Source: a virus
IMG/VR virus record: IMGVR_UViG_3300048587_001123
Location: 1-20,550 of that record
Length of the DNA stretch: 20,550 nucleotides
Strand: one strand, 5' to 3'
The position numbers and the translations under genes were made by a program. Of the stretch, positions 1 to 4,404 are shown one piece after another; positions within the stretch are counted from its first letter, which is position 1, and every line of letters starts with the position of its first letter. The notes beneath the pieces were generated by a model. That model did not search any database and was not told where the DNA came from. It saw only the letters and a program-made list of their open reading frames with translations.

Positions 1-237
1 TCAGAGGGCGTATTCGCCGCGGCGGAAATGCTGGTCCGCGATGTCCTTCAGCTTCGCGGTGGCGTCCGAAAGCCAGGCCGCTTCGCCCCAGAGCACCGTC
101 TCGGGGTCCGCGCCGAAATGGTCCGCGCTGGCCTGCGTGAGTTCCGCAAGAAGGGCGTCGAATTCGGCCTTCTTCGCGAGGAAGGCGGCCAGGCTGCGTT
201 CCTGGTTGCGGGCGGCGCGGGCGGTGCGGTCGGTCAT
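1..237 (-). CDS. Small conserved phage protein, 78 aa, function unknown
   Basis: A 78-residue protein beginning MTDRTARAARNQ, charged and probably mostly helical, with heptad-like spacing in its first half (FLAKKAEFDALLAEL). I recognise it only as a type of small protein common in alphaproteobacterial phages and plasmids and know no function for it. The ATG at 237 is preferred over an upstream in-frame start at 303 because GGAG lies seven bases before it on the minus strand. The stop codon is at the very edge of the window. It is separated by about 140 bp from the gene behind it and may have its own promoter, so it may not belong to the methyltransferase/DUF488 cassette. Confidence 0.7.
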   Translation of the reverse strand: MTDRTARAARNQERSLAAFLAKKAEFDALLAELTQASADHFGADPETVLWGEAAWLSDATAKLKDIADQHFRRGEYAL

Positions 238-325
238 GCTGGTCTCCGTCGTGGTGCAGGGCTTCCCCTGCGTGTGACGGACCATTCGCGCTGTGGCGCG
301 CACGAGCCAAGCAAGATGCAGCGTT

Positions 326-354
326 ATCTTATTGCGATGATTGGGACTTCTGAA
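326..354 (-). promoter_or_regulatory. Weak sigma-70-like promoter candidate for the leftmost gene
   Basis: Reading the minus strand, TTCAGA (354-349) is followed after 17 bases by TAAGAT (331-326), within a locally A+T-rich patch of an otherwise G+C-rich window. It lies about 90 bp before the start of the 78-aa gene, in the only gap of the left cassette. Each hexamer matches the consensus at four of six positions, so this is a suggestion only. Confidence 0.25.
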
Positions 355-377
355 TCATGGAGTGTGCTGCGCTGACT

Positions 378-1151
378 TTAGAACAGCGTGAGCTGCTCCA
401 CCTCATCGAGCCGAACGACGCCGTTGATCAGCCACGTATCTGGGTAGAGCGAGTGGGTGCCCATCGCCATCAGCATCCCCTTCGTCGGATACTCCTCGCC
501 AAACACGCGCTGCATCTCTGCAAGCGCCCGCTGCTCCCCATACGCTTGCCGCCACTTGTAGAATGTCGCCTCGATCTCCCAATCCTGGCAGGTCCCTTGG
601 CGGATGCCGTCGTCCGTCTCGTAGCGGTACTGGAACCTAAACGGGCAAGGCTGATACGGGATCAGCGGTTTGGTGTTGAAGAGATCGCTCTGGTTGTGAA
701 GAGCAGCAAAGGCCGTGCCTTCTCGCGCGAGTTCCTCATCCGTCTTCCGCTCATGGGAGAAGCCGAGGATGCGCGCCTTCAGCAGCGCAAGACTGCGCTT
801 CGCTTCGCGTTCACGCTTGAGACCAGTGACGATACGGGCCGCCAGAAACCGCTGGCGCTCCGTTTGCCGAAGCTCGCCGACCACTCGGATACTGTCCTGA
901 TCGACCCGCCGACTCTCCGGTCGGGGGTCGTCATTAGGCAGGCGCCACCGAAAACGAATGCGATCCCATCGGCCGAATTTCTGTCCCTCATCCAGCGTGC
1001 GGAAGGCAACGGGATACAGCCGCAACCAACTACCCTGCAGGTCAATTCCCGCGCAGCACACTGTCTCGCCGTGCTTTTGCCCAAGCTGCGGCGCAGCTTT
1101 GACGATGACGACCGCCTCGGCCTCACCAGAGGTGGGTGGTGGCGCGCTCAT
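378..1151 (-). CDS. Uncharacterised partner protein of DUF488, 257 aa
   Basis: This family is often encoded directly beside DUF488 proteins, but I know no biochemical role for it. The N-terminal part (about residues 13-60) is compact and strand-rich (VVIVKAAPQLGQKHGETVC, then WLRLYP). A basic middle follows, and the C-terminal third has aromatic-rich conserved-looking blocks (FRFQYRYETDDG, DWEIEATFYKWRQAYG, GTHSLYPDTWLINGVV). No nuclease, kinase or membrane signature is obvious. The ATG at 1151 is chosen because GAGG sits five bases upstream; a TTG at 1187 would add 12 residues. It overlaps the end of the DUF488 gene by 29 bases, which implies coupled translation and perhaps a physical complex. 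It closes the four-gene cassette that starts with two methyltransferases. Confidence 0.75.
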   Translation of the reverse strand: MSAPPPTSGEAEAVVIVKAAPQLGQKHGETVCCAGIDLQGSWLRLYPVAFRTLDEGQKFGRWDRIRFRWRLPNDDPRPESRRVDQDSIRVVGELRQTERQRFLAARIVTGLKREREAKRSLALLKARILGFSHERKTDEELAREGTAFAALHNQSDLFNTKPLIPYQPCPFRFQYRYETDDGIRQGTCQDWEIEATFYKWRQAYGEQRALAEMQRVFGEEYPTKGMLMAMGTHSLYPDTWLINGVVRLDEVEQLTLF

Positions 1152-1695
1152 CGCTGCCTCGGGAACTGGGCCGAGCTGGTGGATCAACGCGGAGATGCGT
1201 CACTCGGATGCCGGTTGCTGCGGTCATGGCATCCGCCACGATCGAGCGGTGGCAGCCGTCGTGGTCTCGCTCGAAGCAAAGTAGGCAGGATCGCACGGCG
1301 GTGGCTTGGCGGCTCGCCTCTGCCAAGGCCGTCTGTGCAGCGGTCCCGGCGAGGTGCCGTGTGTAGATGCGCAGAAAGCCAGGATGGTCGCCTCGTCGCG
1401 CAGCTTCACGCCCAGGCTTTGGGTCTCCGAGATCGCGCAGGTGCAGATACTGGATCCCGCTCTCAGCGAGCGCGGCGGCGAGGGCTGACTTCGAGAAGCC
1501 ACGCTTTCTGGAGAGCGGCAGCTCTCGCACGTCGATCACCTGCTTGATGCTGGCGGAGGCCAGCTTCGCAAGGAACGACGCCAGATCCGCTCCTTCATAG
1601 CCAATGGTGTATACCTGTCGCTGCGGCACAGCCGGTCCTCGAAACGGGTTGGTCAAAAGGCCTAGCGAGGGGGTAGCAGTGTGCCCCGTGGTCAC
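1123..1695 (-). CDS. DUF488 family protein
   Basis: A DUF488 (COG5483-type) protein of up to 190 aa. Visible family blocks are TIGYEG at residues 30-35, DVRELPLSRKRGFSK at 55-69, HLRDLG at 85-90 and a Cys/His cluster with C137, C140, C148 and H149 inside CLLCFERDHDGCHRS. The clustered Cys/His and Arg residues suggest a catalytic or metal/nucleotide-binding site, but the reaction of the family is not established to my knowledge. The GTG start at 1695 overlaps the stop of the preceding methyltransferase as GTGA, so translation is probably coupled; the first 25 or so residues look unconserved and a later start cannot be excluded. It overlaps its downstream partner gene by 29 bases. It is probably cytoplasmic, as no signal peptide or membrane segment is seen. 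Confidence 0.85.
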   Translation of the reverse strand: MTTGHTATPSLGLLTNPFRGPAVPQRQVYTIGYEGADLASFLAKLASASIKQVIDVRELPLSRKRGFSKSALAAALAESGIQYLHLRDLGDPKPGREAARRGDHPGFLRIYTRHLAGTAAQTALAEASRQATAVRSCLLCFERDHDGCHRSIVADAMTAATGIRVTHLRVDPPARPSSRGSDERATTHLW

Positions 1696-2948
1696 GCAAT
1701 CACCGTGGCGGTCCCGACATCGCGCGCCGCGGCGATATCGGCAAAGATGCGGTCGTTACCCTCCAGCACCGCCGCTTCGCCGGTCGTTTCCTGCCAGCGC
1801 CGCACGATCACGTCGGCATAGGCGGGGTCGATTTCCAGCAGCACAGCACGCCGCCCGGTGCGCTCCGCCGCGATCATCGTCGTGCCCGAGCCGCCGAAGC
1901 AGTCCAGCACCGTGTCGCGCGGCTTGCTGCTGTTGCGGATCGCGCGCTCGACCAGCGCCACCGGCTTCATCGTGGGATGCAGGTCGTTGCGCGCCGGCTT
2001 GTCGAAGTGCCAGACATTCCCCTGATCGCGCGCGCCGCACCAGTAGTGCTGCGCGCCGGCCTTCCAGCCGTAGAGCATCGCCTCGAACTGCTGGTGGTAG
2101 TCCGCGCGGCCGAGGGCGAAGGTGTTCTTCGCCCAGATGATCGTGCTCGACCACTTCCCGCCCGCCTCCTGCCAGACGCGATGCAGTGTCGGCCATTCGG
2201 AGGAGGACATGCAGACGTAGCAGGCGCCCTTCGTGACCGAGAGCAGGTTGGCCAGCGCGGGACGGAGGAACTCGGGAAAGCCACCGCCGAGCGCGTCATT
2301 CGCAATGGTCATCTTGGCGGCGGTGCCGCCCTCATAGGCCACGTTGTAGGGCGGATCGACGAAGCCCATGTCGGCCAGGTGACCGGCACCGAGCGCGCGC
2401 TGGACGTCCGCCATCTTCGTCGCGTCGCCGCAGAGGAGTCGGTGGTCGCCGCAGCGCCAGCGATCGCCCGTGCGCGTGACGGGCACCACCGGCGGTGGCG
2501 GCGCCTCGTCAGCATCATCGCCGAGGCCGGCATCCGCCGCGGCCAGCAGCCGGTCCAGCTCCATGCCGGAGAAGCCGAGCACGTCGAGGTCCACAACCGC
2601 CTCGTCGCGGATGCGTGCGATCTCGGCGGCCAGCAGCGCCTCGTCCCAGCCCGAGTTCAGCGCGATCTGGTTGTCGGCGAGACGGAGCGCCCGGGCCTGC
2701 GCCTCCGTCAGGTGCGCGAGACGGATCGCCGGCACCGCCGCCATCCCGAGGCGCTTGGCGGCCATGACCCGGCCGTGGCCCGCCACCAACACGCCGGCGG
2801 CGTCCACCAGCACGGGGTTCACGAAGCCGAACTCGGCGATCGAGGCGGCGATCTGCGCCACCTGATCCGGGGAATGCGTTCGCGCGTTCTCGGCATAGGG
2901 CATCAGCGCGGCGACGGGGATGGTGGCGACCGCGAGATCAGGCAGCAT
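1692..2948 (-). CDS. ParB-like domain fused to DNA methyltransferase (DPPY type), 418 aa
   Basis: Predicted to transfer a methyl group from S-adenosylmethionine to an exocyclic amino group in DNA. Residues about 8-100 form a ParB/sulfiredoxin-like domain with the GHGR motif at 57-60. The methyltransferase follows, with motif IV DPPYN at 198-202, HPTMKP at 324-329 and the SAM-binding FGGSGTT at 351-357. The order IV before I fits the beta class, and DPPY favours N6-adenine over N4-cytosine. The target sequence cannot be read from the protein. The ATG at 2948 overlaps the end of the first methyltransferase gene by 11 bases and has GGAGG nine bases upstream; its own stop overlaps the DUF488 start. 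No cognate restriction endonuclease is adjacent, so it may be an anti-restriction or epigenetic enzyme, or the modification arm of the cassette. Confidence 0.92.
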   Translation of the reverse strand: MLPDLAVATIPVAALMPYAENARTHSPDQVAQIAASIAEFGFVNPVLVDAAGVLVAGHGRVMAAKRLGMAAVPAIRLAHLTEAQARALRLADNQIALNSGWDEALLAAEIARIRDEAVVDLDVLGFSGMELDRLLAAADAGLGDDADEAPPPPVVPVTRTGDRWRCGDHRLLCGDATKMADVQRALGAGHLADMGFVDPPYNVAYEGGTAAKMTIANDALGGGFPEFLRPALANLLSVTKGACYVCMSSSEWPTLHRVWQEAGGKWSSTIIWAKNTFALGRADYHQQFEAMLYGWKAGAQHYWCGARDQGNVWHFDKPARNDLHPTMKPVALVERAIRNSSKPRDTVLDCFGGSGTTMIAAERTGRRAVLLEIDPAYADVIVRRWQETTGEAAVLEGNDRIFADIAAARDVGTATVIA

Positions 2949-4404
2949 CGACCAACGCCTCCGTCCGCGCCGCGGCAACGGCGTCGTAACCTCGGCCGTC
3001 GCCATCCAGCGTGACGTTCAGTTCGGGGAACAGCATGCGGTAACGGGCGATCGCCAGATCGACATAGGCCGGCGCGAGCTCGATCGCCCGGACCTTCCGT
3101 CCCGTGCGCTGCCCGGCGAGGATGGTGGTGCCGGAGCCGGCAAAGGGCTCGAACACCGCGTCGCCGAGGTTGGCGTAGGTCTGCATCAGGAACTCCGGCA
3201 GCGCGACGGGGAACACCGCCGGGTGCTCGGTCTCGATGCCGCGCCCCTTGTGCCGGGTGATCCGCAGCACGCTGTCCGGGATGCGCATCTCCTGCACCGG
3301 CAGGCCGATATGGGTGTAGGCCTTTACCTCGCCGTCCGCGGCGCGCAGCCCGCTGCCCTTGTTCGGCGTGCCGGCCCACTTGCACGGCACGATCTTGTTC
3401 GGAGTGCGGGCCTCGCGGTTGAAGTGGAAGACCAGCTCGAAGGCCGGCGCGAGACGGCCGTTCCAGTCGCCCGGCAGGCCGGGGCCCTGGTCCCAGGCGT
3501 AGAGCCCGAAACGACGCCACCCCTGCGCGCGCATCCAGTCAAGCCAGCCCTGCCAGTAGGGCTGCCATTCCCCCTCACGATGGATCAGGCCGAGATTCAC
3601 CAGCACCTGACCGTCGCCGCGCAACGCGCCGGAGGCAGCAGCGAAGACGCCGCGCATCAGCGCATCCCAATCGGGGACGCCGCCGGTGGTGTAGGCGCGC
3701 TGGTTCCCGTAGGGCGGGCTGGTGAACAGCAGCGCGGCGCGGTCCTCGCCCATTACGCGCGCCACTGAGGCGGCGTCGGTGCTGTCGCCGCAGAGCAAGC
3801 GATGATCGCCCAGCAGCCAGAGATCGCCTGGACGGGTGACGGCCTGGCGCGGCGGCTCCGGGTCGGCGTCGGCGGGATCGTCCGAAGGCTCCTCCGCATC
3901 CGCAGCGCCTGCCGGACCGCCCCCCTCGGCGGGATCCGCGGACAGAGCCTCGGGCGCGTCGCCGTCGGACACGGCGTCTCCAGCCGCCGCGAGGATGTCT
4001 GCGAGCTCATCCGCCGAGAAGCCGAGTGCGCCGAGGTCGATGTCATGCGCCGCCTGCACCGCGGCCAGTGCATCACGCAGCAGCGCCTGGTCCCAGGTCG
4101 CATTCTCCGCGATGCGGTTGTCGGCGAGGCGCAGCGCCTCCTTCTGCGCGGCGGACAGATGCCGCAGCACGATCACCGGCACCTTCGCCATGCCGAGCGC
4201 GGACGCCGCCTCGAGCCGGCCGTGGCCGGCGATCAGCACGTCCGCCTCATCGACCAGCAGCGGGTTGGTGAAGCCGAAGGCCAGCATACTGGCCTTGATC
4301 TGCTCCAACTGCTCGGCGCTGTGCACGCGGGCATTGCCGGCATGCGGGCGCAGCTCCGCCACCGGACGCAGCAGGATCTTCGCCGCCATCCAGGGGAGCG
4401 TCAT
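2938..4404 (-). CDS. ParB-like domain fused to DNA methyltransferase (SPPY type), 488 aa
   Basis: A second methyltransferase with the same architecture as its neighbour but clearly divergent from it. A ParB-like domain occupies about residues 8-105 (AGHGR at 59-63), then comes an acidic, Pro/Ala-rich linker at about 143-188, then the catalytic domain with TSPPY at 228-232 and FAGSGTT at 421-427. SPPY is frequent in N4-cytosine enzymes, so the two paralogues may modify different bases; this is family knowledge applied by inference. The start is uncertain. ATG codons at 4404 and 4389 are both in frame, neither has a clear Shine-Dalgarno sequence, and the frame stays open to 4590 through repeat DNA that does not look coding. 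Four copies of a 9-bp repeat sit just before the start. It heads the overlapping cassette. Confidence 0.9.
   Translation of the reverse strand: MTLPWMAAKILLRPVAELRPHAGNARVHSAEQLEQIKASMLAFGFTNPLLVDEADVLIAGHGRLEAASALGMAKVPVIVLRHLSAAQKEALRLADNRIAENATWDQALLRDALAAVQAAHDIDLGALGFSADELADILAAAGDAVSDGDAPEALSADPAEGGGPAGAADAEEPSDDPADADPEPPRQAVTRPGDLWLLGDHRLLCGDSTDAASVARVMGEDRAALLFTSPPYGNQRAYTTGGVPDWDALMRGVFAAASGALRGDGQVLVNLGLIHREGEWQPYWQGWLDWMRAQGWRRFGLYAWDQGPGLPGDWNGRLAPAFELVFHFNREARTPNKIVPCKWAGTPNKGSGLRAADGEVKAYTHIGLPVQEMRIPDSVLRITRHKGRGIETEHPAVFPVALPEFLMQTYANLGDAVFEPFAGSGTTILAGQRTGRKVRAIELAPAYVDLAIARYRMLFPELNVTLDGDGRGYDAVAAARTEALVDAA

Follow-up and report, generated by a model that had tools for sequence, protein, structure and literature searches.

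The DUF488 gene and its partner gene are understood here, with moderate confidence, as an independent accessory module (the candidate defence pair PDC-M19) that is carried as cargo between a methyltransferase tandem and the small open reading frame g1 of a temperate phage. The two genes occur as a near-obligate pair and are under purifying selection, they are present or absent among near-identical phages, and they have moved repeatedly between phage, plasmid and chromosome.

The window analysed is the whole 20,550-base IMG/VR virus record IMGVR_UViG_3300048587_001123, a temperate alphaproteobacterial phage or prophage fragment whose gene content includes a serine integrase, an ImmA/HTH region, a sigma-like factor, Sak4, a helicase, a Cas4-type exonuclease, a primase-helicase and RuvC. 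The same stretch is found in a Roseococcus MAG contig (L017) at 93% nucleotide identity to the window. The final genes on the minus strand, placed downstream of the DNA-metabolism genes, are arranged as follows, the first four in agreement with a preliminary description made from the DNA:

MTase1: 2938..4404, minus strand; ParB-N6/N4 DNA methyltransferase, motif SPPY, PHROG 498 (1.5e-98); fixed phage gene
MTase2: 1692..2948, minus strand; ParB-N6/N4 DNA methyltransferase, motif DPPY, PHROG 498 (3.3e-144); fixed phage gene
DUF488 protein: 1123..1629, minus strand; 168 aa from the probable GTG start at 1629; Pfam PF04343, PADLOC PDC-M19A
DUF488 partner: 378..1151, minus strand; 257 aa; PADLOC PDC-M19B, PHROG 25907; predicted N-terminal OB-fold
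g1, small conserved ORF: 1..303, minus strand; 3' of the partner here, directly (~50 nt) 3' of MTase2 in most pair-less sister phages
Accessory insert, ends approximate: 324..1720, no strand assigned; sequence identity to the pair-less phage L051 breaks off between the flanks

A fixed methyltransferase tandem and the cargo slot behind it

Both methyltransferases combine a ParB-like N-terminal domain with an N6/N4 methylase and match PHROG 498 strongly. The methylase part is recognized by the Pfam family N6_N4_Mtase (2.4e-24 and 2.9e-18); ParB_N is found at 1.2e-5 and 1.5e-4, slightly below the Pfam cut-off, and the PHROG ParB families match far more strongly. The distinct catalytic motifs described before, DPPY in MTase2 and SPPY in MTase1, are confirmed. 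Fusions of this kind are enriched in phages and prophages (PMC12704722), and the two enzymes resemble them in domain composition; they differ in standing as a tandem, conserved in the lineage, whose two members share 11 bases, and are otherwise ordinary. Sister loci with the tandem number well over 100; g1 usually lies ~50 nt 3' of MTase2 in them, and the 11-base overlap is kept in most sister phages. The ParB-methyltransferase tandem is a fixed component of this alphaproteobacterial phage lineage.

The DUF488 pair, by contrast, is an optional insert in the slot between MTase2 and g1. Comparison with the near-identical phage L051 reveals 94% identity to the window up to ~1721 and 93% again from ~323, with the ~1.4 kb in between, comprising both genes of the pair and the last codons of MTase2, missing in L051. 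The GC content of the insert genes is 61.5% and 65.3%, as compared to 70-71% in the methyltransferases. Neither DUF488 nor partner was detected in any of 119 sister loci having more than 2.5 kb after MTase2, a count in which some phages appear twice (two queries) and which excludes the pair-bearing L001-L003. Among relatives of the divergent L007- and L004-type methyltransferases, the pair was present in 1/69 and 2/71, the three exceptions being the query contigs themselves or the contig of L005. Of the 74 distinct sister phages in which the slot itself was evaluated, 49 have an empty one (150 nt at most) and 22 carry other sequence exceeding 400 nt there. Its other cargo (MTase2-to-g1 stretch, L051-L205) includes a ParE toxin, DUF429, DUF5943/V4R, an IS110 transposase and PD-(D/E)XK. 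In the slots inspected, the end is marked by a conserved CATCTTGCTTGGCTCG ahead of g1. A second contig of the Roseococcus MAG (L048:2404-2553) shows the methyltransferase tandem followed by the last 50 codons of the partner (94%) and no DUF488; this remnant is a decayed copy, with loss in progress.

The gene junctions are in keeping with two separate units. The start of DUF488 is probably the GTG at 1629 and not that at 1695. Because the 22-codon extension from 1695 is interrupted by in-frame stops in L001, L002, L003 and L018, and because relatives begin at the position equivalent to 1629, MTase2 and DUF488 would be separated by ~62 nt and would not share the GTGA overlap. An overlap at every junction, as claimed earlier, is thus upheld for the 11 bases of MTase1/MTase2 and the 29 bases of DUF488/partner; most of the 46 loci compared, non-phage loci included, retain the latter overlap at 10-40 nt. 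With the MTase2/DUF488 overlap missing, joint production of the four proteins is narrowed accordingly: translation coupling is supported within each gene pair and not between them. The DUF488 pair is probably co-transcribed with the methyltransferases simply through its landing site.

The pair on plasmids, chromosomes and other phages

Outside the sister phages, the pair persists on its own. Profile search located the partner in 10/398 Pseudomonadota and 12/385 Alphaproteobacteria genomes, these genome draws including centre genomes already known as partner carriers. In the 17 sampled genomes whose neighbourhood was fetched, drawn irrespective of methyltransferases, DUF488 and the partner were side by side every time; a ParB-methyltransferase was found in none of these 17 neighbourhoods (~8 kb where that much was available, a few contigs being short), as judged with our own methyltransferase profile, to which strongly divergent methylases would be invisible. 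The pair likewise occurs without ParB-methyltransferase on plasmids of Rhizobium, Burkholderia, Arthrobacter, Pseudomonas, Massilia, Streptomyces and others. Locations overall comprise plasmids, including conjugative ones, prophages and chromosomes, and the two genes are arranged on the same strand or convergently. The preliminary description, which had tied the pair to the methyltransferases, regarded the association as accidental should the pair usually be found without them and next to housekeeping genes. This is the outcome of the reciprocal survey, in which the pair usually lacks a ParB-methyltransferase and often lies beside unrelated or housekeeping genes, just as it is rare behind the methyltransferases and missing from the otherwise matching site of L051.

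Evolutionary evidence is consistent with these distributions. When 61 partner proteins were placed in a tree, phage/methyltransferase and other contexts were interleaved, with 7 changes, 6 of them forced by starred branches. In L003, the partner is 91% identical to that of the window and MTase2 just 54%, and the pair and the methyltransferases therefore evolve separately. Values of dN/dS against L001-L003 are 0.04-0.05 for the partner and 0.11-0.16 for DUF488; the pair is therefore maintained, with purifying selection acting on both genes. Roughly 20 of the 26 viral contigs with the pair have it adjacent to a ParB-methyltransferase, which we ascribe to use of a common slot rather than to function, with a small residual chance of a loose functional link.

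The annotated Gordonia phages with the pair encode an integrase and a repressor and are therefore temperate. Their "immunity repressor" (gene 44) was considered as an HTH-DUF488 fusion; this proved wrong, since DUF488 is gene 42 and converges on gene 43, which encodes the partner. Outside prophages, no neighbour gene recurred in more than three of about 27 loci, and the chromosomal neighbours are mostly housekeeping or variable genes. Three chromosomal loci (L025, L039, L042) have a gene for a class II ribonucleotide reductase in the vicinity of the pair, which may be chance.

The status of a conserved unit of unproven function, assigned to the pair in the preliminary description, is reinforced by its independent listing as a defence candidate. 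The PADLOC profiles PDC-M19A (6.7e-31) and PDC-M19B (1.6e-34) match the two genes strongly, and these are adjacent as in the system; different from it, DUF488 here is a short form (model positions 148-288 of 294) located behind phage methyltransferases. PDC systems are putative candidates derived from "guilt-by-embedding" and mostly unvalidated (PMC12988326), and our literature search on DUF488 and PDC-M19 returned neither a functional study nor an anti-phage test of PDC-M19. A test for enrichment of defence genes, in which 14 neighbourhoods of the pair were set against 14 control regions taken from those genomes, gave a few defence hits on both sides, and no co-occurrence with any given defence system was seen in the neighbourhoods surveyed. 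A defence role is plausible but unproven, and the pair is a candidate only.

Predicted folds of DUF488 and its partner

The DUF488 assignment (PF04343) is secure by profile match (1.8e-28; 100 bits vs a curated cut-off of 22.2). The AlphaFold2 model (pLDDT 91) exhibits a Rossmann-type fold as in diphthine synthase and the tetrapyrrole methylases (CbiL-type) at Z 8.7-9.9, where a Z of about 9 is modestly above background, for this model as for that of the partner, and fold resemblance is no proof of activity. A similarity to an archaeal PTP-fold phosphatase is weak (E 0.06). From alignment and model, the invariant residues C118xE120...C126H127R128 are positioned between a strand and a helix, which suggests a Rossmann-type enzyme with the conserved CxE...CHR residues at a strand-loop-helix junction. 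DUF488 has reportedly been placed in the rhodanese-phosphatase superfamily, and the modelled fold is in line with that placement; the likeness would consist in the Rossmann-like fold and the invariant cysteines and arginine, a catalytic cysteine loop being a further hallmark of that superfamily.

Variant forms of DUF488 were also noted. A Streptomyces plasmid (L221:7203-7889) encodes a protein with an N-terminal extension that is HTH-like by eye, and a form with an N-terminal extension domain of ~150 aa (L266:7080-7994) is present in three other genomes. A Panacea-like domain considered for the extension of the long forms (L266, L277, L281) gave no match at those positions. In one phage contig, the methyltransferase is preceded by an additional, divergent DUF488 (31%; L010:1637-2137).

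The partner has the invariant residues K18, E29, C32, R44, R61, W62, D75, R77, E79, C188, D190, W191, E192 and H233. Its AlphaFold2 model (pLDDT 85) contains an OB-fold at residues 4-106, and the best matches are nearly all OB folds (RecO, telomere end-binding protein, PriB, SSB; Z 7.8-9), with RecO at Z 9.0 over 88 aa and a top Foldseek E of 2.6e-4. The likeness to these proteins lies in the N-terminal half of the model, whereas identity to the partner is ~10% and no sequence relationship was found. The fold suggests a protein of the kind binding single-stranded nucleic acid or DNA ends. Sequence searches of solved structures with both proteins, singly and as profiles, gave no meaningful match. 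On the Sulfolobus plasmid pSOG2 (L220:7986-9346), the partner is present with DUF488 nowhere on the plasmid; the gene next to the partner resembles, by eye, a small PD-(D/E)XK-type nuclease.

Possible functions of the pair

The preliminary description envisaged a modification-dependent defence or a hypermodification path, in which the methyltransferases mark the DNA and DUF488 and partner act on marked or unmarked DNA. Location of the genes next to each other on one strand, probably in one transcript, and the proximity of the pair to a ParB-methyltransferase in most of the viral contigs would be expected from it. Yet the pair does without a methyltransferase on plasmids and in each of the 17 sampled genomes, the methyltransferases do without the pair at 119/119, 68/69 and 69/71 loci, L051 lacks just the pair, and partner and MTase2 of L003 have diverged to different extents. 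With each found without the other, such a system is very unlikely; reciprocal co-occurrence, empty site and tree all reveal an effector not constantly linked to a methyltransferase. The pair could instead serve its carrier as a DNA-end or recombination factor, processing intermediates of replication or recombination on behalf of the element and not for host defence. Resemblance of the partner's modelled OB-fold to RecO, PriB and SSB, carriage by phages and conjugative plasmids, and the position downstream of DNA-metabolism genes in the window phage are suggestive of this role, which we nevertheless consider unlikely, given that the pair is absent from almost all sister phages with the same replication module and is a lone module in chromosomes.

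Maintenance of the mobile element by a toxin-antitoxin-like pair, one protein harming the cell and the other restraining it, would account for near-obligate, overlapping genes on mobile elements, and ParE-type toxin genes do occupy the same slot in sister phages. It is rendered improbable by the many invariant enzyme- or binding-like residues in both proteins, by the convergent order that is common for this pair and unusual for toxin-antitoxin pairs, and by the pSOG2 partner without DUF488. An anti-defence function, shielding phage or plasmid from host immunity (e.g., by repairing or masking DNA ends or by removing signalling nucleotides), fits carriers that are incoming elements and a slot of variable cargo. 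We give it an equally low probability: the pair is also found in chromosomes without visible element, the annotated pair-carrying Gordonia phages are temperate with integrase and repressor, and no association of the pair with a given defence system emerged.

How an independent accessory module of this type might work can be proposed tentatively from the two models. The partner would recognize unusual ends or single strands that arise when another phage or plasmid replicates; DUF488 would then modify or remove terminal groups there, or act on nucleotides, with the outcome that the lysogen excludes competing elements. Exclusion of competitors is favoured because the carriers are lysogenic phages and plasmids, for which the pair is optional cargo. 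The scheme as a whole, in which an OB-fold partner hands the ends or single strands of an invader to a DUF488 with new catalytic activity, so constituting a mobile immune pair across bacteria and archaea, is possible but should be viewed as speculative.

Lastly, our analysis has importance in separating an ordinary, fixed methyltransferase tandem of the phage from a mobile pair that is a defence candidate. The two genes are kept together in proteobacterial phages, on plasmids and in actinobacterial phages, and they appear as a widespread couple, already listed as a candidate, of a putative enzyme and a putative nucleic-acid binder. The slot behind the methyltransferases is a place to seek further phage-borne accessory genes, and the phage family offers natural comparisons between near-isogenic members that have or lack the pair, for direct tests of the pair's role.
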